IMG/VR virus record: IMGVR_UViG_3300033148_005976
Coordinates: 1-45,352 of that record
Strand: one strand, 5' to 3'
Length of the DNA stretch: 45,352 bases
Source of the DNA: a virus
How positions within the stretch are numbered: the stretch's first letter is position 1; every line of letters starts with the position of its first letter. A program made the position numbers and the translations under genes. Below the pieces are notes generated by a model, which saw only the letters and a list, made by a program, of their open reading frames with translations, had not been told where the DNA came from and did no database searches. Below, piece after piece: positions 4,911 to 45,352 of this stretch.

Positions 4911-5062
4911 TGCCCAAGGCCTTTGAAGAGTGTGTTAGGAAGGGAGGCAAGGTCCGTACTAAGGTAATTGGCAAGAACAAATACATACATATTTGCATCC
5001 CTCCTGGTGGAGGTCCCTCTGTTGGAGGGGAGGTTAAGACCAAAAAGAAAGGAAAGAGCTAA
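4910..5062 (+). CDS. Small basic unknown protein
   Basis: A 50-aa frame from an ATG overlapping the terminase stop (TAATG), ending in a TAA that overlaps the next ATG. Both one-base overlaps support a real, translationally coupled gene. The protein is Lys/Gly-rich, with FEECVRKGGKVRTK at the start and a GGGPSVGG loop, and a KKKGKS tail. Function unknown. Confidence 0.65.
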   Translation: MPKAFEECVRKGGKVRTKVIGKNKYIHICIPPGGGPSVGGEVKTKKKGKS

Positions 5063-5430
5063 TGGACAAGGAAACCTTCATAAATAGTATTCAATGCTTA
5101 GGAAATTTAACAAAGCCTTCTCCAATCGTAAAGGTAGTAGGAGAGGATGGTTATATTTGGATTCGATGGAAGAAGAAAGAGCCTTTCCAGTCATATCTTG
5201 GTATATACCTCTGGAGCGTTCCCATAGGGACTCAGTACATCTACGGAATTGCTTTTGCAAACCCTGAACTCATTAATGCCTCTTCAAGGGGAGATGTTCT
5301 GGCTAAGAATCATCTTAAAAAGACCATAGAAAAAGTACAAGAGGATATGTGGGATTTTGTTTTGAGGAAATATAAGGACTGCTTAGACGAATTGGAGGTT
5401 GCAAATGGGCCTAAGGAAAGAGCTGCGTGA
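5062..5430 (+). CDS. Unknown protein in virion operon
   Basis: A 122-aa protein with no motif I recognise. The N-terminal half is rich in beta-formers and aromatic residues (YIWIRW, YLGIYLWSV), the C-terminal half is helical and charged (KKTIEKVQEDMWDF). It overlaps the preceding small gene by one base and the next by 26, so it belongs to the same coupled string between terminase and portal. No signal peptide or membrane span is evident. Confidence 0.75.
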   Translation: MDKETFINSIQCLGNLTKPSPIVKVVGEDGYIWIRWKKKEPFQSYLGIYLWSVPIGTQYIYGIAFANPELINASSRGDVLAKNHLKKTIEKVQEDMWDFVLRKYKDCLDELEVANGPKERAA

Positions 5431-5686
5431 GTTCATTGTTTTTATGATGAATTTTGTAAACGAGTGGCAAGAGTGGCAGCGTAAACGAGATGCTGCCCTC
5501 AGGGGCTACAAAGTCCTTGTTCAACGCCTAGAGGCCCAAAATCAGGATCTCATGGACCGTCTTATGGCAAGGGATTTACCTGAAGTAAAGACCTATAAAC
5601 TCCCTGACGAGACTCCTATTGAGGATTCCTATGATCCCAAAGCCGATGAAAATTTGGCTGGGGAAGTTGTTCACATTGAGGATTAG
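5405..5686 (+). CDS. Helical unknown protein
   Basis: A 93-aa protein from ATG 5405, chosen because GGAGG (5394-5398) lies six bases upstream. An in-frame TTG at 5399 lacks that spacing. It is predicted helical for its first 55 residues (WQEWQRKRDAALRGYKVLVQ), with an acidic C-terminus. It overlaps the preceding gene. Function unknown. A minor head or assembly role would fit its position only. Confidence 0.7.
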   Translation: MGLRKELREFIVFMMNFVNEWQEWQRKRDAALRGYKVLVQRLEAQNQDLMDRLMARDLPEVKTYKLPDETPIEDSYDPKADENLAGEVVHIED

Positions 5687-5700
5687 TTCAAATTATGAAC
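5686..5700 (+). repeat. Dispersed palindrome, variant copy 4
   Basis: GTTCAAATTATGAAC. One base of the TTTTGAAC half is changed so that an ATG appears at 5695, the apparent start of the next gene. The right flank AAGTTCTGGG matches other copies. Confidence 0.8.
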
Positions 5701-5949
5701 AAGTTCTGGGAATATGAAAGGATGTATGAGGATTTTGGGAGAAGGTTGATGGATTTCTTTCTGGGAAGTGTGGCTGATCCCAGGAGGGAGGAAATTGAGG
5801 ATCTAGGTGCTGCATTGGCACTTAGTAAGGAGTTGGCCGAGAGGAGTTCTATTGGGATAGCTAAGAGGGGTTGGCTAAGTGATGTGGAGTACTATAGAAA
5901 GAAGCTTAGGGAACTGGGTGTGGTGAGTTTGCCTGTTTTGAGGAAGTAG
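5695..5949 (+). CDS. Unknown protein starting inside a palindrome copy
   Basis: An 84-aa protein, helical and charged (EYERMYEDFGRRLMDFF), no known motif. The ATG lies within the palindromic repeat, and the nearest purine-rich ribosome site (GAGG) is 13 bases upstream, further than usual. The true start could be the internal ATG at 5722. It ends just before the metallopeptidase-like gene. Confidence 0.6.
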   Translation: MNKFWEYERMYEDFGRRLMDFFLGSVADPRREEIEDLGAALALSKELAERSSIGIAKRGWLSDVEYYRKKLRELGVVSLPVLRK

Positions 5950-5950
5950 G

Positions 5951-6910
5951 ATGGCTAGCCTTGACCAAAAGATAATTACTATTACTGATCCTGAGCAGTT
6001 AGAGAGAGCCAGGAGAATAGGCTTTTTGCAAGCTGCCGCAACTGCTGGAAGAAATCTGTTGGAATACCTGAGGCCAAAGGAGAAAATTCCCAAAGAGTAT
6101 CCTCTCCTGGCTAAGGCTCTGGCCCTTCCAACGACCTATGTCAATGTTAAGTTAAAGGAGTTAGGAGAGGCCCTGAGGCGGTCGATGTATACTGGGAGAA
6201 TCTCTCCAGAGGATGCCCTTTCTCTGGCTGGATGGGGTACGGCAGGAGGTGCTCCTGGCGCTCCCAAGCCAGTTCCTGGGACGGTGGATGTAGGAATTCT
6301 AAAATCGCAGTTGCTTATGCAGTTGCTTAAGCTTAGGCACACCCATAGGGGCATTACGGTTAAGTTCTCTCCAAAAGGATTAGCTGAGTTTGCTGAGGCC
6401 TTTCTGGCTACTCCTCAACGGGAGTTGAGTCATTTTAGGAAGTTAACTACTACAGATGTAGCTTCTGCAACTTTCCGCCGTGGGGAAAAAGCCATAGGGT
6501 TGAATTTAGTGGACTATAATCCAGAGGCCTCCTGGTTCTTCCATGAGCTAGCTCACGCCAGACAATGGTCACGAAAAGTTGATCCTAGGGAGAGGTTTAG
6601 GAATCTGTATATGATAAAACTCAGGGATGAGACCTGGCCCTATATGCAGGGTTTGGTGAGAGAAGGAAGAATCAGGGCAATCCACGATATAGATCCTGTT
6701 GAATTACACGCAGAACTTGTGGAAAAAAGTCTTGAGAAACTTGGACGCCCCGCAGCTATGGGGAGGGCTTTTGGGAGGGTTTACAGAGAGGCTTTGGATG
6801 ATCCTCGAATATCTTATGAGCTTGAGAAACGTCTACCAAGCGTCTTTCTTGAAAGTGTTGCTAAGGAGGCAGCAAGAAAAGCAAAAACTAAACTTTGGAA
6901 AATGCCATGA
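5951..6910 (+). CDS. Zinc-metallopeptidase-like protein
   Basis: A 319-aa protein with a clear HExxH motif (FFHELAHARQW, HELAH at about 198-202) and downstream DPVELHAELVE that could supply a third zinc ligand. This is the signature of zincin metallopeptidases. The first 25 residues (ITDPEQLERARRIGFL) resemble the N-terminus of the ADP-ribosyltransferase-like protein at 1900 (IEDPKRLRKLREQGFL). A Gly/Ala/Pro linker sits near residues 95-112. It lies just before the portal gene, so it could be a prohead protease or a virion-delivered enzyme. Typical prohead proteases are serine enzymes, so this would be atypical. Ribosome site AGGAAG before ATG. Confidence 0.6.
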   Translation: MASLDQKIITITDPEQLERARRIGFLQAAATAGRNLLEYLRPKEKIPKEYPLLAKALALPTTYVNVKLKELGEALRRSMYTGRISPEDALSLAGWGTAGGAPGAPKPVPGTVDVGILKSQLLMQLLKLRHTHRGITVKFSPKGLAEFAEAFLATPQRELSHFRKLTTTDVASATFRRGEKAIGLNLVDYNPEASWFFHELAHARQWSRKVDPRERFRNLYMIKLRDETWPYMQGLVREGRIRAIHDIDPVELHAELVEKSLEKLGRPAAMGRAFGRVYREALDDPRISYELEKRLPSVFLESVAKEAARKAKTKLWKMP

Positions 6911-14421: not shown

Positions 14422-15291
14422 ATGAATGCTAAGGATATGTTGGATTTATTGAGGGACTTTGTAGCGGAAGCTAGCTCCTCACATTGGTCTGATTTGAATT
14501 TGCTTAGGAGGCTTAATGTGGCCCAGAGAAGGGTGGCCTTGAATGTGGCTACTACGGCTGGGCAATGGCTAACGACAAGCACATCGGTTACACCCTCGAA
14601 TAGTGTGATTACGCTTCCTAGTGATTGTGCAAAGCCCCTTTATTTGGAGGAAGCCTTAAGTGGGACTAAGGTGAGTTGGATTCCCAGTGTGAGCTATAGG
14701 AGAAGGGATAGGGCTACTGGGAGTACACTTAGTACGATTGGGAGCAGGGAAGCTTATCCACTGATGAGCACGATTGTGGTGAATCAGGCCAATTATTCTA
14801 CGGCTTGTACACTTTGGTACCAGATTAGGGTTCCTAAGCTGCATTGTGGAACGGCTCAGAGTGGAAGTGGAGCCAATGCGCTTGAATTGGATGACAGAAG
14901 TGAGGCAAATGGTGGGACTGGAAGGGAGATTGTGCTTATTGATGACTACTATAATGGTGCCGTTGTTGAGGTGATTGATGATACTAGTGGGATTGTAGAT
15001 ATAAGGAGCACGATTAGTGATTATGATAGCGCTACCCATGTGCTTACGATTATGGGGACTCCGGCTGATGGGGATACTTATGGGACTGTAAGTAGGCTCC
15101 CAGAGGAGACTCATGAGTTAATTGTCCTTGAGGCTGCCGTGATGGCCCTTATGAAGCCTGCTTCGACGCTTGATAAGAGCGTCCTGGAGGGCTATATGGT
15201 GGAAAGAGGGGAGATGAGAAAGGAAGTCTATGGTTGGCTTGAGAGTAGGATGCCTGAGCCTGGCTATGTGAATATTGGGGATGAGTACTGA
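14422..15291 (+). CDS. Head-tail adaptor protein
   Basis: A 289-aa protein. The N-terminus (DMLDLLRDFVAEAS, LLRRLNVAQRRVALN) and C-terminus (LPEETHELIVLEAAVMALM followed by helical text) frame a beta-rich middle. Helix bundle, beta insertion, helix is the layout of podovirus adaptors (gp6/gp4-like), which sit below the portal and receive the nozzle. Its position before the nozzle-like gene agrees. The stop overlaps the next ATG by one base. Confidence 0.65.
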   Translation: MNAKDMLDLLRDFVAEASSSHWSDLNLLRRLNVAQRRVALNVATTAGQWLTTSTSVTPSNSVITLPSDCAKPLYLEEALSGTKVSWIPSVSYRRRDRATGSTLSTIGSREAYPLMSTIVVNQANYSTACTLWYQIRVPKLHCGTAQSGSGANALELDDRSEANGGTGREIVLIDDYYNGAVVEVIDDTSGIVDIRSTISDYDSATHVLTIMGTPADGDTYGTVSRLPEETHELIVLEAAVMALMKPASTLDKSVLEGYMVERGEMRKEVYGWLESRMPEPGYVNIGDEY

Positions 15292-17777
15292 TGCCTGTCG
15301 AGCTTTTCAAAGAACAACTTAATGGTAAGTATGATGGAGTGACTCCTGCTACACTCCTTCCTGTTGGTGGTATCTCGGGTGGCAAGAATGTGAGGAAAGT
15401 AAGTGTCCTCGGAGGATGGAAACCCAGGAGGGGGTGTAGCACTCATAATACGACAGCTATTGCAGCGGATAAGGTTTGGTCGCTTCATAGGTATAAGCAT
15501 CCGAGGAATGGAGACTATCATTTCATTGCTCAGTGTGATAGCAAGCTCTATGATGCGACTAATGATCCTCCGGCTAGTGGAACTACCTTTGGAACGGATA
15601 TTACGAATAACAATAATGTCTCGAATAGCCAACCAGGGTTTAGTGACGTGATTGAAGAGATGTGGGTTTATGTTGATGGTGGTTCTCCGCTGATGTGGGG
15701 GGGAGACAGTCCGTTTTGTACGGGCTTTATTGTGGAGGATGATAGTGAAAGCGCTAAGATTGACTACACAAGGCAGGTTACGGATAACAGGACTGATACT
15801 CAGGCAGTTGTGTTGGTGGCTGCCTCTGATGTTTATTATGTATGTAGTCCTGAAATCGCAAAGGGTATTGTTCTTACACTAGGGACGAACAAGAATACTA
15901 CGAGTAGTAGGACCTGTACTGTGAAGGCTTGGAGAAGTGGAGCTTGGGCAGCAGTTAGTGATTTGAGTGATGGAACGGATTCAGGGAGCTCAACTACACA
16001 TGGCCAGAGTGGAACCATTAGCTGGACGGCTGGCTCAGACACCATGAGAGTGATTGGTGGGATTATGGGCTACTGGTATCAGGTGAGTTTCTCGGGTGTT
16101 CTTAGCAATAGTGTCGATGTGACTAAGTGTCAAGTTCAATTCGACTTGGCTACGATGACGAATAAATGGAGTGGTGTTCACGAGATGCCTTTGAGTGTGA
16201 GGTTCTATGATCAGAGTCTAGATACTTATGAGGATCTTACTGGGAAGCTTACGAATGAGAGCACGAGTCAGTACTATAATCTTTCTGGAGCTACTACCAA
16301 TGACTATATTTATGTGAAATCCTCTGAACCTCTTGCCGGAATAGGAATTGGTATTGCTCCTGGGTATGGCTCTGATACCGGAGGTGGGAACATTGACCAG
16401 ATTGATTACTGGGATGGGGACTCGTGGAATGCTATAACTACAGGGATTGTGGATGAGACGTTGAATGGTGCTGGAACGGAGAGCTTTGCCCAGAGTGGAG
16501 TGGTTTGGTGGAATGCTACGGGGCTTACTGTAGCCAAGAGGACGATGGACTTTGACTCGACTCCTGGATATTGGTATAGGATTAGTTGGGATGCTGCACC
16601 GGATAATACAGATAATGATGTGAGGATGTACTATGTAACTACGGCAACTTTTCCAGAAGACCTTCCAAGCTACGATGGAGTGATTGAGTTTAAGGGACGG
16701 GCTATGCTTTGGGGTGATCCTGAGTATCCTAATAGGCTCAGGTTCAGTGCAAAGGATAGGCCAGATTGTTTTAGTGGGAGCGATAGTGGCTATACGGATG
16801 CTTTTGGAGACAAGACGCCTATTAAGTCTGTGGTGAGGTTTTATAATGAACTGTTGGTGTTTAAGGAGAACTCTGTCTGGATGCTAGAAGGCTACTCTCC
16901 GGCAACTTTTGGGACTTTGAGGATTGCTGATACAGTTGGGATTGCTTCGCCTAAGACGGCAAGGGTAATCGAGATGGGCAGTCCTATGATGCACAAGGAT
17001 GAGCCTTTGAGTATTGCTATCTGGATGGATACAGATGGAATTTATGCGCTGGACGGGAGAAAGCCTAGAAAGATTTCAGAGGTTGTAAGTAACTATTTTA
17101 ATCCAGAGAGTTCTGATGCCATTTCTGCATCCTCGCTGGATGGCTGTCAGGCTTTTATAGATCCTATTAATACGGAGTATCATTTGTTGATTCCTGGAAG
17201 TGGGAGTGGACAGGGAACGGAGCTTGTGTATAATCCCCTGACGGATGAGTGGTATCCTCCTTGGGATAGAACAGTAGGAGATGCGAATAGCTATTTGGTG
17301 TGTGGATTGAGTCTAAGGGGAACGGATAATAGATATTATACCTATGGTGGGAATAGTGAAGGAAGAGTGTTTAAGCTGGAGGATGACACCACAGATAAGG
17401 ATGAGAGTAATGCTGATGTGACTATTACGCATAGTGTGAAAACTAGGGCTATTGCTCCGATTCAGAGGCAGTCCACTACGTTTGAGTTCACTTTTCGGAA
17501 AGCTTGGGTTGAGGCTAAGGCTGTTACGAGTCCTGCTACGAAGACTATCACGGTGAAGTTCTATAAGGATATGGCTACAAGTGGGACTGCGCTTTCTACT
17601 CCTGGAGCTATTGATCTGGGGAATAGTGGGTATTCGCTAGCTGTGGACGGAGTAGATGCGAGTCAAGAGAACTGTGTGGCTTTTCAACTGGAATTCGAGG
17701 CAAGCACGGCTGATTTGGAGATGGAACTCTGGTCTTTCATGTATTCGTTGGCTGTGAGGGGAGAAATTGTCCAGTAA
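15291..17777 (+). CDS. Tail nozzle/stopper-like protein
   Basis: An 828-aa beta-rich protein. It starts with LGGWKPRRGC, then repeated strand modules, and near residue 460 FKGRAMLWGDPEYPNRLRFS and later LLVFKENSVWMLEGY, which resemble beta-propeller segments of podovirus nozzle proteins (P22 gp10 or T7 gp12 type). Such proteins form the distal tail hub holding fibres. Two similar modules (IDYTRQVTDNR and IDQIDYWDGDSWNAIT) suggest inserted carbohydrate-binding-like domains. It is ATG-coupled with the adaptor gene, the expected partner. Confidence 0.65.
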   Translation: MPVELFKEQLNGKYDGVTPATLLPVGGISGGKNVRKVSVLGGWKPRRGCSTHNTTAIAADKVWSLHRYKHPRNGDYHFIAQCDSKLYDATNDPPASGTTFGTDITNNNNVSNSQPGFSDVIEEMWVYVDGGSPLMWGGDSPFCTGFIVEDDSESAKIDYTRQVTDNRTDTQAVVLVAASDVYYVCSPEIAKGIVLTLGTNKNTTSSRTCTVKAWRSGAWAAVSDLSDGTDSGSSTTHGQSGTISWTAGSDTMRVIGGIMGYWYQVSFSGVLSNSVDVTKCQVQFDLATMTNKWSGVHEMPLSVRFYDQSLDTYEDLTGKLTNESTSQYYNLSGATTNDYIYVKSSEPLAGIGIGIAPGYGSDTGGGNIDQIDYWDGDSWNAITTGIVDETLNGAGTESFAQSGVVWWNATGLTVAKRTMDFDSTPGYWYRISWDAAPDNTDNDVRMYYVTTATFPEDLPSYDGVIEFKGRAMLWGDPEYPNRLRFSAKDRPDCFSGSDSGYTDAFGDKTPIKSVVRFYNELLVFKENSVWMLEGYSPATFGTLRIADTVGIASPKTARVIEMGSPMMHKDEPLSIAIWMDTDGIYALDGRKPRKISEVVSNYFNPESSDAISASSLDGCQAFIDPINTEYHLLIPGSGSGQGTELVYNPLTDEWYPPWDRTVGDANSYLVCGLSLRGTDNRYYTYGGNSEGRVFKLEDDTTDKDESNADVTITHSVKTRAIAPIQRQSTTFEFTFRKAWVEAKAVTSPATKTITVKFYKDMATSGTALSTPGAIDLGNSGYSLAVDGVDASQENCVAFQLEFEASTADLEMELWSFMYSLAVRGEIVQ

Positions 17778-18573
17778 GGCAAGGAAACCCTATCTTGGGC
17801 TTAAGAGGAGTTTGACTGATTTCTTTAGGACTCCTGTGAGGTATTTGAAGGAGTCTAATGTTAAGGAAAGTCAGTTTGAGAAGCCCTATTTGGGGAGGGA
17901 TTATAGGCGTATGCACTTTGCTCTCCCTGCTCCTGATTGGCCAACTTGGAAGTTTGATCCTGATATTGCTGGAGGCAGGAGGTGGAGTCTTCAGTTACCC
18001 TTTGGTGTAAATCCTTCTGGCGATATTGAATTTGATCCTAATGAATGTCCTTGCTGCTTTCTTGTTAGATGGAATGAGTGTGGAGATGGTATTCTGTCTG
18101 GCGGGCTTTGGATGGGTATTTGGCATAGAGATGAAATTCCATCTGGGCTATTGACAAATGGTCACGGAGAATGGGTTATTGAGGGAGCTTATAAGAATGT
18201 CTCAGAGGTAGTAGGTTTGCCTCTCGAGGGTGGGGCTTATGGTGGCTCTCATAGGCTTTGGTTTGAGTTTGATCCTGATCAATCTACACTAGATGGTTAT
18301 ACTCCTGTTACTTTGTGTTATGAGATTAAAGGTTTTTGTAGACATTGTGTAGACTATTGGGCTTATTGTGAAACTTGCACCTGTCCCTCCGGAGACTTTG
18401 CCTTTGATGACGCCTCAACGCCAGATACTATAGCCCCTGGTGGAAGTATTACAATGTATGTGAGCGGGGGTTGTCCTCCCTATAACTGGAGCGTTTCCGG
18501 GACGGGTTATACATTGGACAAGGCTTCCACAACGGGGTTAAGCAACGGTCTTAATTGCGCCTCTGGGACATGA
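17767..18573 (+). CDS. Cysteine-rich Ig-like protein, N-terminal part before in-frame TGA
   Basis: A 268-aa frame from TTG 17767, with GAGGGGAG upstream. It has a globular N-terminal domain with many cysteines (CPCC, CRHC, CETCTC), then the start of an Ig-like domain: SGDFAFDDASTPDTIAPGG, VSGGCPPYNWSVSGTG, LNCASGT. It stops at TGA 18571, in the middle of the domain. The same frame continues as GTDYDAVASVTVTDDCGDSV, which completes the domain. The frame is therefore most likely one protein of about 424 residues with a recoded or mutated codon. Position after the nozzle gene suggests a tail protein. Confidence 0.7.
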   Translation: MSSKARKPYLGLKRSLTDFFRTPVRYLKESNVKESQFEKPYLGRDYRRMHFALPAPDWPTWKFDPDIAGGRRWSLQLPFGVNPSGDIEFDPNECPCCFLVRWNECGDGILSGGLWMGIWHRDEIPSGLLTNGHGEWVIEGAYKNVSEVVGLPLEGGAYGGSHRLWFEFDPDQSTLDGYTPVTLCYEIKGFCRHCVDYWAYCETCTCPSGDFAFDDASTPDTIAPGGSITMYVSGGCPPYNWSVSGTGYTLDKASTTGLSNGLNCASGT

Positions 18574-19041
18574 GGAACGGATTATGATGCAGTTGCATCA
18601 GTGACTGTAACAGATGACTGTGGAGACAGTGTAGACTTTGATATAATCGTTAGTACTGGCAGGTGGTCGCCAACATATTATGACGGTTTTGTTATAGAGA
18701 CGGAGCGCTGTACTGATACAACAAGTTATTATGGGTACTACTCTGGTGTTGACTGCCTAGAGGTTAACCCTTGGAGAGATATTCGATGTTGTGATAGAGT
18801 GGGGAAGTATCGTCAGTTCCAGAAGGTTGGGTACTCGGCGGGTGGCGGATGTGCGAATTGTTGTAAGTTAACCCCTGTTCCTGAGTGTGGTAATGAAACT
18901 TGGTGTTACAAGCAGGTAGGTTCAGACGGAGTGAAACAAGGCCTGGTCTTGCGCTCTTGGTATCCCATTTGCGATGACTCTTGTCCTGGAAACACTTGCT
19001 TGTATAACTATGAAAGGTACTATCAGGAATGGATCTGTTGA
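18574..19041 (+). CDS. Continuation of the Ig-like cysteine-rich protein after TGA
   Basis: The frame is the same as 17767-18570, with no other stop to 19039. The first residues complete the Ig-like strand pattern broken by TGA, and a Cys-rich C-terminal domain follows (CCDRVGKYRQF, CANCCKLTP, CPGNTCLYNYERYYQ). The first in-frame start codon, GTG 18601, has no ribosome site, so independent translation is unlikely. Alternatives are read-through or Sec insertion at 18571, a nonsense mutation, or a sequencing error (TGC or TGT read as TGA). Confidence 0.55.
   Translation, partial: GTDYDAVASVTVTDDCGDSVDFDIIVSTGRWSPTYYDGFVIETERCTDTTSYYGYYSGVDCLEVNPWRDIRCCDRVGKYRQFQKVGYSAGGGCANCCKLTPVPECGNETWCYKQVGSDGVKQGLVLRSWYPICDDSCPGNTCLYNYERYYQEWIC
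18585..18600 (+). other. Hairpin just after the in-frame TGA
   Basis: TGATGC (18585-18590), loop AGTT, GCATCA (18595-18600) make a perfect 6-bp stem starting 11 bases after the TGA. The loop lies about 17-20 bases after the TGA, close to where bacterial SECIS loops sit. The consensus GGUC loop of E. coli fdhF is not present, only GU within AGUU. Confidence 0.45.
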
Positions 19042-30635: not shown

Positions 30636-33125
30636 CTAAAGCTCCATTGGAAATTCAGCTTCGTCTTTTATTTCTTCCATATTCCCCCAACTCTTGCCCC
30701 ACTTGAAGTCACAGGGGATTATGAGTTCCCTTCCCTCTACATAGAGGGGCATCTCCATTCGCTTACGGATGGCCTTTATAGCCTTTGGGATGTCCCTGTA
30801 TCTGCATTGCCCAACTACCTCATCGTGGACATTGAGAAGAGGCTCATAGAAATCCAAATCTTCATGAATCTTCTGTATAGCAATTTGAAGAAGCTCTCCC
30901 ACCGTGGATTGGGGAACGAAAGCAACAGCACTACGAAAGAGGTTTTCGTTGAGTCTTCCTCTGAAATGCCTCACTCTTCCAAGCGGTGTTGTGAGTTTGC
31001 GAGTTGCACGAATAGTCTCCTTTACCTTCTCTTGCCAGCGAATGATCATGGGGTTTGCTGCACGAGTTCTAGCAAGGAACTGTCTGCAAGTTGCTTCTGG
31101 AAGGTAGACCTCTTCACGAATAAGGATGTTTTGAAGCATCCTTGGCCCCATGAGATAGTTGGAGGCATGGACTATGGTTTTTGCAATGCGCCGGTAGAAT
31201 TTAAGGGTATGCTCTTCTCCAGTGATTTGGTCCTTGAATAGAGCCTTTCCATTATAGGGGACTTCTTTAGGAATTCCGAAGACCTGTCTTGCGTTTTCCC
31301 AATGAACGTCTCTTCCTGCAAGGAAAGCCTCAATGAGACGAGTATCTCCTGCAAGCCAGGCAACCATTCTTGCTTCAGCTTGAGCAAGGTCCGAGGCAAG
31401 AAGCACAAGCCCCTCATCTGGGATAAAGAGATCTCTGATGAGCTTGCCCTCTTTGGTCCTAACAGGGATGTTTTGGAGATTTCCTCCTCCACCAAAATGA
31501 GACTCTGAGGAGCTGAGCCTATACGTGCTAACCCACCCATAGCTTGTCCGGATTCTTCCATCCTCTTCTATTTTCATACTTGTGTAAGTGTCTGCAAGTT
31601 TGGAGAATTCACGGAATTTAGCGAGATTCTCCAAAACCTCATGTTTCGGGAATTTTTTCCTGAGCCTATTAAGGGCGTCCTTGTCCGTTGTTGGACGCTT
31701 GGTCTTGTGATGGTATTGGATAGGCATATTGAGCTCAGAATAGACAAGGGTATTTACCTGAATCGAGGAGCGTAGATTAATTGGATGTTCTATTTCAGCC
31801 ACAACAGCCCTCTCAGCTTCATCCGCAAGAGAATTGAACTTTGTCGCAAGTTTGTCTCTCTTTTCCAGATCTGCACAAACACCCCTAATCATCATTCTCA
31901 ACAAAGAGGGCGTGACTGACATAGAGCGCAAATAGCCGTTCCAAGTCCCAAGCTCATGAGCATCTCGCTCTATTTGGGGCCAGATTTCTCTGGTCACGCA
32001 ACAATCTCGGGCATTGTAGGTGTATTCTGCCTCATCACTAATACGCCTCCCGTCCCAGACTTTGCCATCATCCTTGTAGTAGGGTTCCCAAGTGAAGACT
32101 GAGGACAGAGTATCAAGACTCTTCTTCATATAGGGATACGTTGCCTGGAAGAGATACATAGTATCATGCCAGGAACCTGGGGCAACTCGGACCCCGTAGT
32201 ATCTCCCAAGGATGGAGAGATCGTAGAGGCCGTTGTGGAAGACTTTAGTAATATTAGCGTTGAGAAAAACCTCCGAAATGGCTTGCCATAGAACGGCTTC
32301 CTCCTTGGGGGACCAACAAAACTGTCCATGCCTCAGAAAAGGAATCACAAAGGCATAGTCAGGCGAGGGAGAAAATCCCATACACCAAAGCAGAGGGCCT
32401 TTCGAGCTTCGAAGAGTCTCTATATCTACGGCAACGATTCCGCTTAGTTTTCTAAGTTCGTCTATAATTTCCTCCAAGGTGAGATTAATCCTAAATGTCC
32501 TTTTTGGTCGTTGCAGTTCTGGGAATTCTGCTTGAATCATAGACCTTTCAAGATCCTTCAATGTAAGGGGAAGCACATTCTGTTGCATAGTTTTCTTCTC
32601 TCCAAGAAGTCTTTCCGTTGGCTCATTCATGAGCCTATTCACGTAGCTTGGGTGGTACATAGCATAGACTTTGAAACCTGGAACGAGTGTGCAAGGAAGG
32701 ACACTTCCCCTCCACTTAGAGATTCTCTTGTGGCCGGTGAGAATGTAAAGGGGTGTGGCTCCCAGGGCCACTAATACATTAGGACCTTTACCGGTTTGCC
32801 TACGTCTTTCAAGGAGTCCCTCAAGCCACCTCTTGAGAGCATCTATATGCTCCTGTCCTTCCCAAGTTGGCCTGGTGCAAGATTTGTCCTGGAAGTAGTA
32901 GCCCACATTATTTCCTGGAGGTTGTTGCTTAAAGACATTAGTAAGCAGAATATCTCTCCTTAAAATTCCCACTGTCTTGAACATTTGATTAAGCCTCATT
33001 CCAGCATCACCCTGGAAGGGAAGGAGAAGTCTGTTTTCCTCCTTTCCAGGAGCCTCTCCAATGAAGCAGACCTTTGAATCTAACGGACCCTCTGGGCCAA
33101 CAACGTTTGTTTGGAGTCTTTCCAT
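30636..33125 (-). CDS. Uracil-DNA-glycosylase / family-A DNA polymerase fusion
   Basis: An 829-aa protein. Residues about 15-200 resemble family 4/5 uracil-DNA glycosylases (CFIGEAPGKEE, LPFQGDAGMRL, LVALGAT, MYHPSYV). Next is a DEDD 3'-5' exonuclease (VAVDIETL, FHNGLYDLSIL, YNARDC). The C-terminal half is a family-A polymerase: motif A ASDLAQAEAR, motif B RRIAKTIVHASNYLMG, motif C NVHDEVVG. It should replicate the phage genome and may sense uracil in the template. Only part of the cysteine set for the Fe-S cluster of family-4 UDGs is visible. Position between helicase and PnuC-like gene fits a replication operon. Confidence 0.88.
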   Translation of the reverse strand: MERLQTNVVGPEGPLDSKVCFIGEAPGKEENRLLLPFQGDAGMRLNQMFKTVGILRRDILLTNVFKQQPPGNNVGYYFQDKSCTRPTWEGQEHIDALKRWLEGLLERRRQTGKGPNVLVALGATPLYILTGHKRISKWRGSVLPCTLVPGFKVYAMYHPSYVNRLMNEPTERLLGEKKTMQQNVLPLTLKDLERSMIQAEFPELQRPKRTFRINLTLEEIIDELRKLSGIVAVDIETLRSSKGPLLWCMGFSPSPDYAFVIPFLRHGQFCWSPKEEAVLWQAISEVFLNANITKVFHNGLYDLSILGRYYGVRVAPGSWHDTMYLFQATYPYMKKSLDTLSSVFTWEPYYKDDGKVWDGRRISDEAEYTYNARDCCVTREIWPQIERDAHELGTWNGYLRSMSVTPSLLRMMIRGVCADLEKRDKLATKFNSLADEAERAVVAEIEHPINLRSSIQVNTLVYSELNMPIQYHHKTKRPTTDKDALNRLRKKFPKHEVLENLAKFREFSKLADTYTSMKIEEDGRIRTSYGWVSTYRLSSSESHFGGGGNLQNIPVRTKEGKLIRDLFIPDEGLVLLASDLAQAEARMVAWLAGDTRLIEAFLAGRDVHWENARQVFGIPKEVPYNGKALFKDQITGEEHTLKFYRRIAKTIVHASNYLMGPRMLQNILIREEVYLPEATCRQFLARTRAANPMIIRWQEKVKETIRATRKLTTPLGRVRHFRGRLNENLFRSAVAFVPQSTVGELLQIAIQKIHEDLDFYEPLLNVHDEVVGQCRYRDIPKAIKAIRKRMEMPLYVEGRELIIPCDFKWGKSWGNMEEIKDEAEFPMEL

Positions 33126-33373: not shown

Positions 33374-33906
33374 GAATCCTGGATTTTCTTGTAGACTAAG
33401 CGGGTTAAGCGAACATCCTCCATAGCGTCGTGCAGATTCTCCTTGTCGAAGGAAATGCCCAGGAGTCTTGTAGCTTCCCCCAACTTGAGCCACTTGCTAG
33501 TATTAAAGCGTACGTTTAGTAGGTGCATGACGTCAATCACTCCAACCAGGGGTGGATGCTTAAAACGTCCCTGTTTATAAGTGGAAAGGAAGTTCTGGAG
33601 CATTGGGAGGTCAAAGTTTATACAGTTATAGCCTATGAGTAGACATGGTTGATGACTCCAAATAACCCTATGCCAGGCTTCGGCAGCAGCCTCAGCGAAC
33701 ATGCCCACAGCGTCTAGGTACTCTTGGGAGATGCCCGTTAGTTGGGTTATTTTAGAATCAAGCGGCTTTGGGCTCCTGATGTAGAAACAATTTCCAAGGA
33801 GTTCCCCTCCTTCTTTAGGGCCTTCGATTATGTAGGCGACTTGGATGGGCTGATCCTTTATGGTGTCCAAACCTGTGGTTTCTATGTCGAAGTAGATTTT
33901 ATGCAC
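33361..33906 (-). CDS. DEDD-family 3'-5' exonuclease
   Basis: A 181-aa protein of the DnaQ/pol III epsilon family, which removes nucleotides from 3' ends. ExoI FDIETTG (residues 6-12), ExoII NFDLPML (about 97-103) and ExoIII HDAMEDVRLT (about 158-167, DEDDh type with His) are all visible. It starts at GTG 33906 with AAGGAG upstream and overlaps the end of the methyltransferase gene. It could proofread for, or degrade ends alongside, the fused polymerase, which has its own exonuclease domain. Confidence 0.85.
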   Translation of the reverse strand: MHKIYFDIETTGLDTIKDQPIQVAYIIEGPKEGGELLGNCFYIRSPKPLDSKITQLTGISQEYLDAVGMFAEAAAEAWHRVIWSHQPCLLIGYNCINFDLPMLQNFLSTYKQGRFKHPPLVGVIDVMHLLNVRFNTSKWLKLGEATRLLGISFDKENLHDAMEDVRLTRLVYKKIQDSFKI

Positions 33907-35404
33907 TTTCTTTCTCCTTCTTCCATTCTAACATCTCCCCCTGCTTCTCCGGATGGGCTTTCCAATAGCGTTTCCAGTCTGAACTTCCAGGTTCGAGTTC
34001 CCTAAAGTCCTCTGGAAGTGGAGGTAGTTCATAGGAAGCCCTGGGTTGGGTTGGTTCGGTGATTAGGTTGTGGTAGCCTTTGACTAGGTTCATTATGGCT
34101 AGGTCTCGAAATTCCTTCTCTTTTTCAATAAGCACCCAATCGAGCTTATGGGTAGCATTGAGGACCTCACAAGCTACTCCCGTCATCCCACTTCCTGCCA
34201 TTGGGTCGAGGATTTTATCCCCTGGCATAGCAGAACGCCTAAGCAAATCTATCATGACATCGGGATGCTTGGCGGTTGAGTGGCTCTGCTTAAGGCTTGG
34301 AGGGGGTGCAGGAGTGATGATGACATCTGGAACTCCCTTCTTAGATAAAACTTTATTTCCCTTCCTGCCATACGCCACAGGCTCATAACTACGGCCTGGT
34401 CGAGTATCCGGATTTCGAGTGACATGTGCTCCTTGTTTGTACCAAATGAGAGGAATATGATCAACCTCAAAGCCGGCGCTTTGGAGAGCACTATAGACAG
34501 CTTCGTGGTTAACGATCCCAAAGAAGCAGTACAAATGAGAGTCCTTCGCCATTTTAGAAAAAATGAGCCTGAGCCAATTCGGGAAGTTTTTATGGAAAAT
34601 GCTAGGATCGTCTTCAAAAGCACGAGTTCCACCTCCTTTCTTTCGTACTTTGTCTGCATCTACGCCCCAGGGAGGGTCGAAGATTACTATGTCGAAGTAA
34701 TTATCTGGGAAGTTCAAAAGAGCCTTCTCCATTTCTCCATGAATTACCTTCTTGGCGAAGTAGAGAAGTTGAGCGTCTTCATCAACTTTGCCTTCTTCGT
34801 CTGAGGGGAGCTCCTCTTTGAGTTGTTCTTGTTCCCTCAAAGTAACCTCTAAAAGCCTTTCCCTTCGATTAAGCTCTTCCTTGAGACGCTTTACGATCTT
34901 CTTAGCCTCTGTTTTGTTTTTGGCCTGGCGAACTTCTTCAGAGACCTTTGCGAAGGCGGCCAGTTCGAGGTCCTCTGCAACTAAGCCAGGACTTTCTCCA
35001 AGGATTTTAGCGGTTTCCCTTACTCCATGTCCTCCGTAGCCAGAGCCGTGTTGCTCCTGCTTAAGCCTGTGAAGTTCCTCCTTAGCCTCGACGACTTCCA
35101 AGAAAGTTAGATCGACTCGTTTGATGTTTTCCTCAAGCTCGATTTCTCTTATCTTAATCGGGTTTGTTTCCTCACTAAGGGTGTAGGAGAAGGGAATACC
35201 CGCAAGTTCACAGGCTTTGAGCCTCCGCTCTCCTGCTACGAGGATTACCCTTTCTCCCTCTTTGCGACATACCCCAGGCTGAAGCTGCCCGAAGCGGGAG
35301 AAGCTCTCAGCAAGTTCACGGAGTTTGTCTAGTTGGAACTCCTTTCGGATGCGATCTTCTGGGATGATTACTTCATCTGCTGGTGTTTCGTAAACTTGGG
35401 TCAT
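33899..35404 (-). CDS. ParB-domain / DNA methyltransferase fusion
   Basis: About 501 aa from ATG 35404. An open frame reaches 35464 but lacks a start with a ribosome site. Residues about 1-110 are a ParB/Spo0J N-terminal domain (FGQLQPGVCRK, LVAGERRLKACELAG, ELEENIKR), then a helical DNA-binding-like region. The C-terminal half is a beta-class amino-methyltransferase: motif IV FDPPWG, the S-adenosylmethionine motif DPMAGSGMTG. It would methylate adenine-N6 or cytosine-N4 in DNA and could protect phage DNA from host restriction. Such ParB-methylase fusions occur in several phage groups. The target is unknown. Confidence 0.85.
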   Translation of the reverse strand: MTQVYETPADEVIIPEDRIRKEFQLDKLRELAESFSRFGQLQPGVCRKEGERVILVAGERRLKACELAGIPFSYTLSEETNPIKIREIELEENIKRVDLTFLEVVEAKEELHRLKQEQHGSGYGGHGVRETAKILGESPGLVAEDLELAAFAKVSEEVRQAKNKTEAKKIVKRLKEELNRRERLLEVTLREQEQLKEELPSDEEGKVDEDAQLLYFAKKVIHGEMEKALLNFPDNYFDIVIFDPPWGVDADKVRKKGGGTRAFEDDPSIFHKNFPNWLRLIFSKMAKDSHLYCFFGIVNHEAVYSALQSAGFEVDHIPLIWYKQGAHVTRNPDTRPGRSYEPVAYGRKGNKVLSKKGVPDVIITPAPPPSLKQSHSTAKHPDVMIDLLRRSAMPGDKILDPMAGSGMTGVACEVLNATHKLDWVLIEKEKEFRDLAIMNLVKGYHNLITEPTQPRASYELPPLPEDFRELEPGSSDWKRYWKAHPEKQGEMLEWKKEKESA

Positions 35405-35418
35405 TTCAGTAATGTCTC

Positions 35419-35676
35419 CTATAGGGTGTATTTGAAGAAATCGTAGAGTTCTATAATACAGCAATCTGGAGGAAGTTTTGGGAGGTCCATCAGGAGCCCC
35501 TTAATTCTAGCCATGATCTCTCTTCCGCTGTAGGTATTAGAGGATGGGTAGTATTCTCGCAGCTTTAGAACATCTCCCTCTTTAAAGCCTTCGTTTTTTC
35601 TTCCGTATTCTGTGTGCGTTTGACCTCTCCAGAGGTCGTCGAAGAATTCTGGTTGTACTTTAATCTCATGAAGCAT
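35419..35676 (-). CDS. DUF3850 / ASCH-like domain protein
   Basis: An 85-aa protein. HEIKVQPEFFDDLWRGQTHTEY, RKNEGFKEGDVLKLREY and YSGREIMARI reproduce the DUF3850 pattern (PUA/ASCH-like RNA-binding fold): HxLKxxPxYFxxVxxGxKxxExRxNDRxFxxGDxLxLxEY. The usual job of these proteins in phages is unknown, but the fold is linked to RNA. Ribosome site GAGGAG. Confidence 0.75.
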   Translation of the reverse strand: MLHEIKVQPEFFDDLWRGQTHTEYGRKNEGFKEGDVLKLREYYPSSNTYSGREIMARIKGLLMDLPKLPPDCCIIELYDFFKYTL

Positions 35677-45238: not shown

Positions 45239-45352
45239 ACTTCTACAACCGCCGGGACGAACCCCCCCGTGGTCTACTCTACCGTAGATTTATAGAGTAG
45301 ACACCTCCGTGGAATCCGTGGGATGGGTAGACTGCGTAGAAGTCCAAACAAC
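45239..45352. repeat. Terminal direct repeat, right copy
   Basis: Identical to bases 1-114. See the left copy for its inverted repeats. Together they indicate a closed genome or short direct terminal repeats. Confidence 0.9.

Follow-up and report, generated by a model that had tools for sequence, protein, structure and literature searches.

The pairing of an in-frame TGA with cysteine in homologous proteins is the classical signature of a selenoprotein, and cases in which a single sequence carries the TGA have been kept as candidates only, owing to sequencing error (PMC1088965). Selenocysteine (Sec) is used by about 21.5% of sequenced bacteria (PMC5029168), and changes from cysteine to selenocysteine have been described for catalytic redox cysteines (PMC1794560). 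According to the bacterial SECIS model, the hairpin has a stem of 4-16 bp and a loop of 3-9 nt with a G within its first two positions, the distance from the UGA to the loop is 16-37 nt and the energy is at most -7.5 kcal/mol (PMC13188914). As far as phages are concerned, a tRNA-Sec gene has been reported for Basilisk-like phages (PMC6145125), and coat proteins extended by stop read-through, as in the coat/A1 pair of Q-beta, are known to occur (PMC8067240). A limited literature search returned no report of a phage selenoprotein, structural ones included.

A cysteine-rich gene with an internal TGA

The stretch of DNA analysed here (the window) is an entire IMG/VR virus record of 45,352 bases and looks like the complete genome of an uncultured phage. 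An exact direct repeat of 114 bases is present at its two ends (1-114 and 45239-45352), on the basis of which the record is probably a complete genome, either circularly assembled or terminally redundant. The left arm includes genes for a terminase, a P22-like portal and a major head protein, and several of the structural genes neighbouring the locus described below encode no cysteine at all. Two multi-domain chains were observed on the minus strand, one (30636-33125) with matches to uracil-DNA glycosylase, 3′-5′ exonuclease and family A DNA polymerase domains, and the other (33899-35464) with ParB-N and N6/N4 DNA methylase domains. In another genome (G008:C1:20053-22044) the match to the terminase large subunit is split in two, with about 180 bases between the pieces, inside a single open frame of 673 aa, as if a short stretch had been inserted.

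The frame of interest (17767-19041) directly follows an 828-codon gene (15291-17777), the end of which it overlaps. The initial annotation described this frame as continuous except for one TGA, and the open reading frame check bears this out: the TGA at 18571-18573 is the sole internal stop, the terminal stop being the TGA at 19039-19041. More specifically, the 5′ part (17767-18573, plus strand) encodes a cysteine-rich Ig-domain protein in 268 codons, from a TTG start with AGGGGAG upstream of it (17757-17763) to the in-frame TGA, which takes the place of residue 269, the site of an otherwise conserved cysteine. The product has an N-terminal block (ARKPYL...ESxFEKPY) that is conserved among relatives. 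The 3′ part (18574-19041, plus strand) encodes the last two Ig-like strands and a cysteine-rich C-terminal tail, and is without a good start of its own. With the TGA site not counted, there are 26 cysteines in the 424 residues of the product (6.1%), a content that is unusual for a phage protein and hints at extracellular disulfides or metal binding.

The locus could be read as two separate proteins, the second of them started at GTG 18601 or later, and GTG 18601 is indeed in frame and the first start after the TGA. It had been called the only such start, which is incorrect, given that GTG 18799, GTG 18931, TTG 18949 and TTG 19000 follow in the same frame, while the accompanying observation that no ribosome site precedes it still stands. 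A second protein of this kind would moreover begin within the Ig-like domain, and the relatives have one gene in place of two, all of which makes this reading hardly credible.

Relatives, fold and the residue at the break

Searches with the protein encoded by 17767-19041 alone, also in a phage collection, found no relatives. When the upstream neighbour gene was used instead, one relative was retrieved (L001, 59% identical in that neighbour), from which stepwise alignment searches added L004, L005, L006 and L015-L024. The gene is carried by 10 distinct related IMG/VR virus records, and in all ten it is an unbroken single frame; in record G003 it spans the contig ends and corresponds to L005 plus L012. 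The Ig-like domain is found in nine of the ten, the C-terminal half of L019 being wholly different. All nine domain-bearing relatives (L001, L004, L006, L012, L015, L016, L020, L023 and L024) have cysteine at the TGA position, encoded by TGT in eight cases and by TGC in L001, and none of them has TGA. The suggestion that a cysteine would fit at the gap, for which homologue alignment had been named beforehand as the check, is therefore upheld.

The surroundings of the site are conserved as well. The context reads GT-*-G in the window and GT-C-G in L001, the closest relative, and elsewhere it is mostly xAC-G with a TVTDxC-like strand after it; the window and L001 also share a longer spacing and a Y-x-AVA stretch past the site. 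The sequence 3′ of the TGA keeps the frame and matches the C-termini of the relatives, and the alignment of L004 with the window protein continues to the C-terminus. Matching flanks, together with the cysteine in the relatives, indicate that the TGA breaks one ancestral gene at a conserved cysteine codon. About seven cysteines are kept in nearly all relatives, and the TGA site is one of them. Exact DNA search gave no second copy, and no record that is nearly identical but differs in base at the TGA site was found, in searches from which very near records may have been omitted.

The TGA splits the part of the gene that encodes the Ig-like beta-sandwich domain (18394-18675, plus strand, about residues 210-303). 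In an AlphaFold2 model built on the ten-sequence alignment, confidence is low overall (48.6) and reaches about 80 over residues 211-300, which form a beta-sandwich. The best Foldseek match of the model is a chain of phage Moo19 (9d7z_J, E 6.4e-4) and the fourth is a chain of phage N4 (9lbz_q); a HMMER profile search also placed Moo19 and N4 proteins on top, with weak E-values (0.13 and 0.32), and Pfam and PHROGs gave no family for the protein. The single frames of the relatives and the Ig fold recovered by AlphaFold and Foldseek confirm that the text on both sides of the TGA belongs to one Ig-like domain, as the initial annotation had supposed. Residue 269 is placed by the model in a loop between strands 259-264 and 276-282, where a structural role would be likelier than a redox site. 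Termination at the TGA would deprive the sandwich of two strands and the protein of the 155 residues after the stop.

These features also bear on leaky UGA read-through, by which a near-cognate Trp or Cys tRNA would yield a short major product and a little of the full-length form, in the manner of Q-beta coat/A1. The intact and homologous downstream frame is compatible with such a mechanism, and coat proteins of this type do occur in phages, but the relatives encode the full-length form only, all nine domain-bearing relatives have a sense codon where the window has a stop, and the short form would end in the middle of the Ig sandwich, whereas the Q-beta coat is a complete protein. Read-through is therefore regarded as very unlikely.

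The C-terminal tail behaves differently from the rest of the gene. Between L023 (gene at 5001-6290) and L024 (5001-6254), identity is 94% up to and including the Ig domain (280/299) and 37% in the tail (56/150), which implies that change in the tail is frequent; judging from this comparison, the cysteine-rich tail appears to be exchanged or very fast-evolving. A pattern of conserved domain and variable tail may suit a surface or receptor-contacting protein, and the position of the gene among structural genes indicates that its product is probably a virion surface protein, for which the conserved N-terminal block could act as an anchor. A stop variant that lacks the tail might be tolerated, or might be transient. 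As a by-product, the analysis has uncovered a family of cysteine-rich phage proteins with an Ig domain and a tail that changes fast.

The hairpin and the decoding of the TGA

A hairpin (TGATGC-AGTT-GCATCA, 18585-18600, plus strand) with a stem of 6 bp and a 4-nt loop (AGTT) starts 11 nt past the TGA, its loop lying 17 nt past it. Formally, it falls within the bacterial SECIS model in loop, stem, G-U, spacing and energy, and the 42 nt at this place fold with a z-score of -2.8. The initial annotation had emphasized this perfect hairpin at SECIS-like spacing, and its geometry was described correctly, yet it is not exceptional. In the window, a perfect stem of at least 6 bp at SECIS spacing is found after 3.3% of codons and an equally stable 42-nt fold after 6%; among the codons of the window genes, about 22-23% are followed by a sequence that fits the whole SECIS model, or 8% when a stem of at least 6 bp is demanded. 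For synonymous recodings of the encoded peptide GTDYDAVASVTVTDDCGDSV, the share that fits the model rises to 38.5% (20.5% with a stem of at least 6 bp), and 8% fold as stably, the symmetry of the hairpin being supplied by the Ala-Val-Ala codons. A SECIS-like hairpin is present at the site in only one of the nine relatives, and an Rfam search gave no relevant family match. Given the encoded peptide, the hairpin thus does not exceed chance level and adds little weight; with 8/9 relatives lacking it and no Sec genes found in the phage, the emphasis on SECIS is not sustained.

Genome-wide recoding of TGA was ruled out, TGA being an ordinary stop that closes 14 of the 40 genes of this phage. SelA, SelB and tRNA-Sec were not found in the phage genome, nor were any tRNA genes detected in the 45,352-base window. 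Insertion of selenocysteine would proceed via the SelA, SelB and tRNA-Sec of the host, with the hairpin at 18585-18600 as SECIS element and with relatives that use cysteine; the host was sought by scans of genome contigs and was not found. The pairing of the TGA with cysteine in 9/9 homologues, the hairpin within SECIS limits and the fold z-score speak for such a reading. Against it stand the ease with which the SECIS model is matched (about 23% of codons and more than a third of recodings, as above), the lack of TGA in all nine relatives and of the hairpin in all but one, the missing Rfam match and Sec machinery, the limited use of selenocysteine among sequenced bacteria, and the position of the site in an Ig-like loop, whereas changes from cysteine to selenocysteine are described for catalytic redox residues. 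In our judgement, the conserved cysteine raises the odds of selenocysteine about tenfold and the hairpin a few-fold, starting from a prior that is low because the limited literature search gave no phage selenoprotein. Selenocysteine is consequently considered very unlikely, and this estimate is a judgement and not a computed probability; that one dsDNA phage lineage swapped a conserved cysteine of a virion Ig domain for selenocysteine by borrowing host machinery is given marginally less credence still. If selenocysteine were used, the phage would encode a structural selenoprotein, for which the same limited search found no earlier report.

Origin of the stop and known systems

A cysteine-rich gene is an easy target for changes of this type. 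There are 65 single changes that create a TGA in the gene, and 26 of them (40%) strike cysteine codons, because the gene has 26 other cysteines; for stops of any kind the figures are 199 and 26. Therefore, in such a gene little can be concluded from a TGA/Cys pair accompanied by a SECIS-like hairpin, as 40% of the changes that create a TGA strike cysteine codons and 38.5% of the synonymous recodings fit the SECIS model. A random TGA would fall on one of the approximately seven conserved cysteines in about 11% of cases (roughly one in nine), which is a point against a nonsense mutation or base error.

In a comparison that covered 385 kb, every open frame of the related records was set against the others and against the window, and the stop at 18571 was the only convincing internal stop. 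Other Cys/TGA candidates (L046 13005, L054 5048 and 10444, and L024 7333) were rejected after inspection of their context, since they lie in upstream or antisense frames, so that the TGA break stands alone and is not part of a system. Frameshift or poor assembly was ruled out as well: no multi-frame matches and no other internal stops were detected in the window, the check for internal stops covering the large part of it where genes of relatives align. With a lone stop and no frameshift, there is no sign of a virus group that uses selenocysteine or a recoded TGA.

The initial annotation had left four options (selenocysteine, read-through, nonsense mutation and sequencing error), of which nonsense or base error fits best, selenocysteine and read-through being weak. 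The likely explanation is a recent substitution from cysteine to stop, either a true variant or a base error, at a conserved cysteine codon of a cysteine-rich gene. The frame 17767-19041 would encode one 424-residue cysteine-rich protein that combines the conserved N-terminal block with the Ig-like domain and the fast-evolving tail, and a TGC or TGT codon of this frame would have become TGA by a single substitution. This may be a nonsense mutation in the phage or in part of its population, presumably a recent one, as a frame that stays intact and homologous after the stop is what would be expected of a recent event; alternatively, the base at the TGA may be an assembly or sequencing error. Under the ordinary code, the product would end at residue 268, inside the Ig sandwich, with the loss of the last two strands and the tail. 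Two further points count against the substitution or base error: the genome shows no other damage, so that the stop is not due to an assembly with errors throughout, and the gene is full-length in every relative, an argument for a useful tail.

The locus shares features with several known systems and departs from each of them. A proposed link to selenocysteine is common to this phage and the Basilisk-like phages, but the window is without any tRNA gene. As in bacterial selenoproteins, the TGA is aligned with the cysteine of homologues, both flanks are conserved, and a hairpin with G-U in its loop lies at a permitted spacing; unlike them, the TGA is limited to a single sequence with no second TGA-bearing relative, the hairpin is at chance level, and neither a redox enzyme among the known ones nor any known Sec machinery corresponds to this case. 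As in Q-beta coat/A1, an in-frame UGA separates two portions of a structural protein of a phage, although the stop in the window falls within a folded domain and is not shared by relatives. Lastly, an Ig-like domain is shared with Moo19 chain J (9d7z) and the 32 kDa protein of N4 (9lbz, 9e99), from which the gene family of the window is set apart by its own N-terminal block and cysteine-rich tail.
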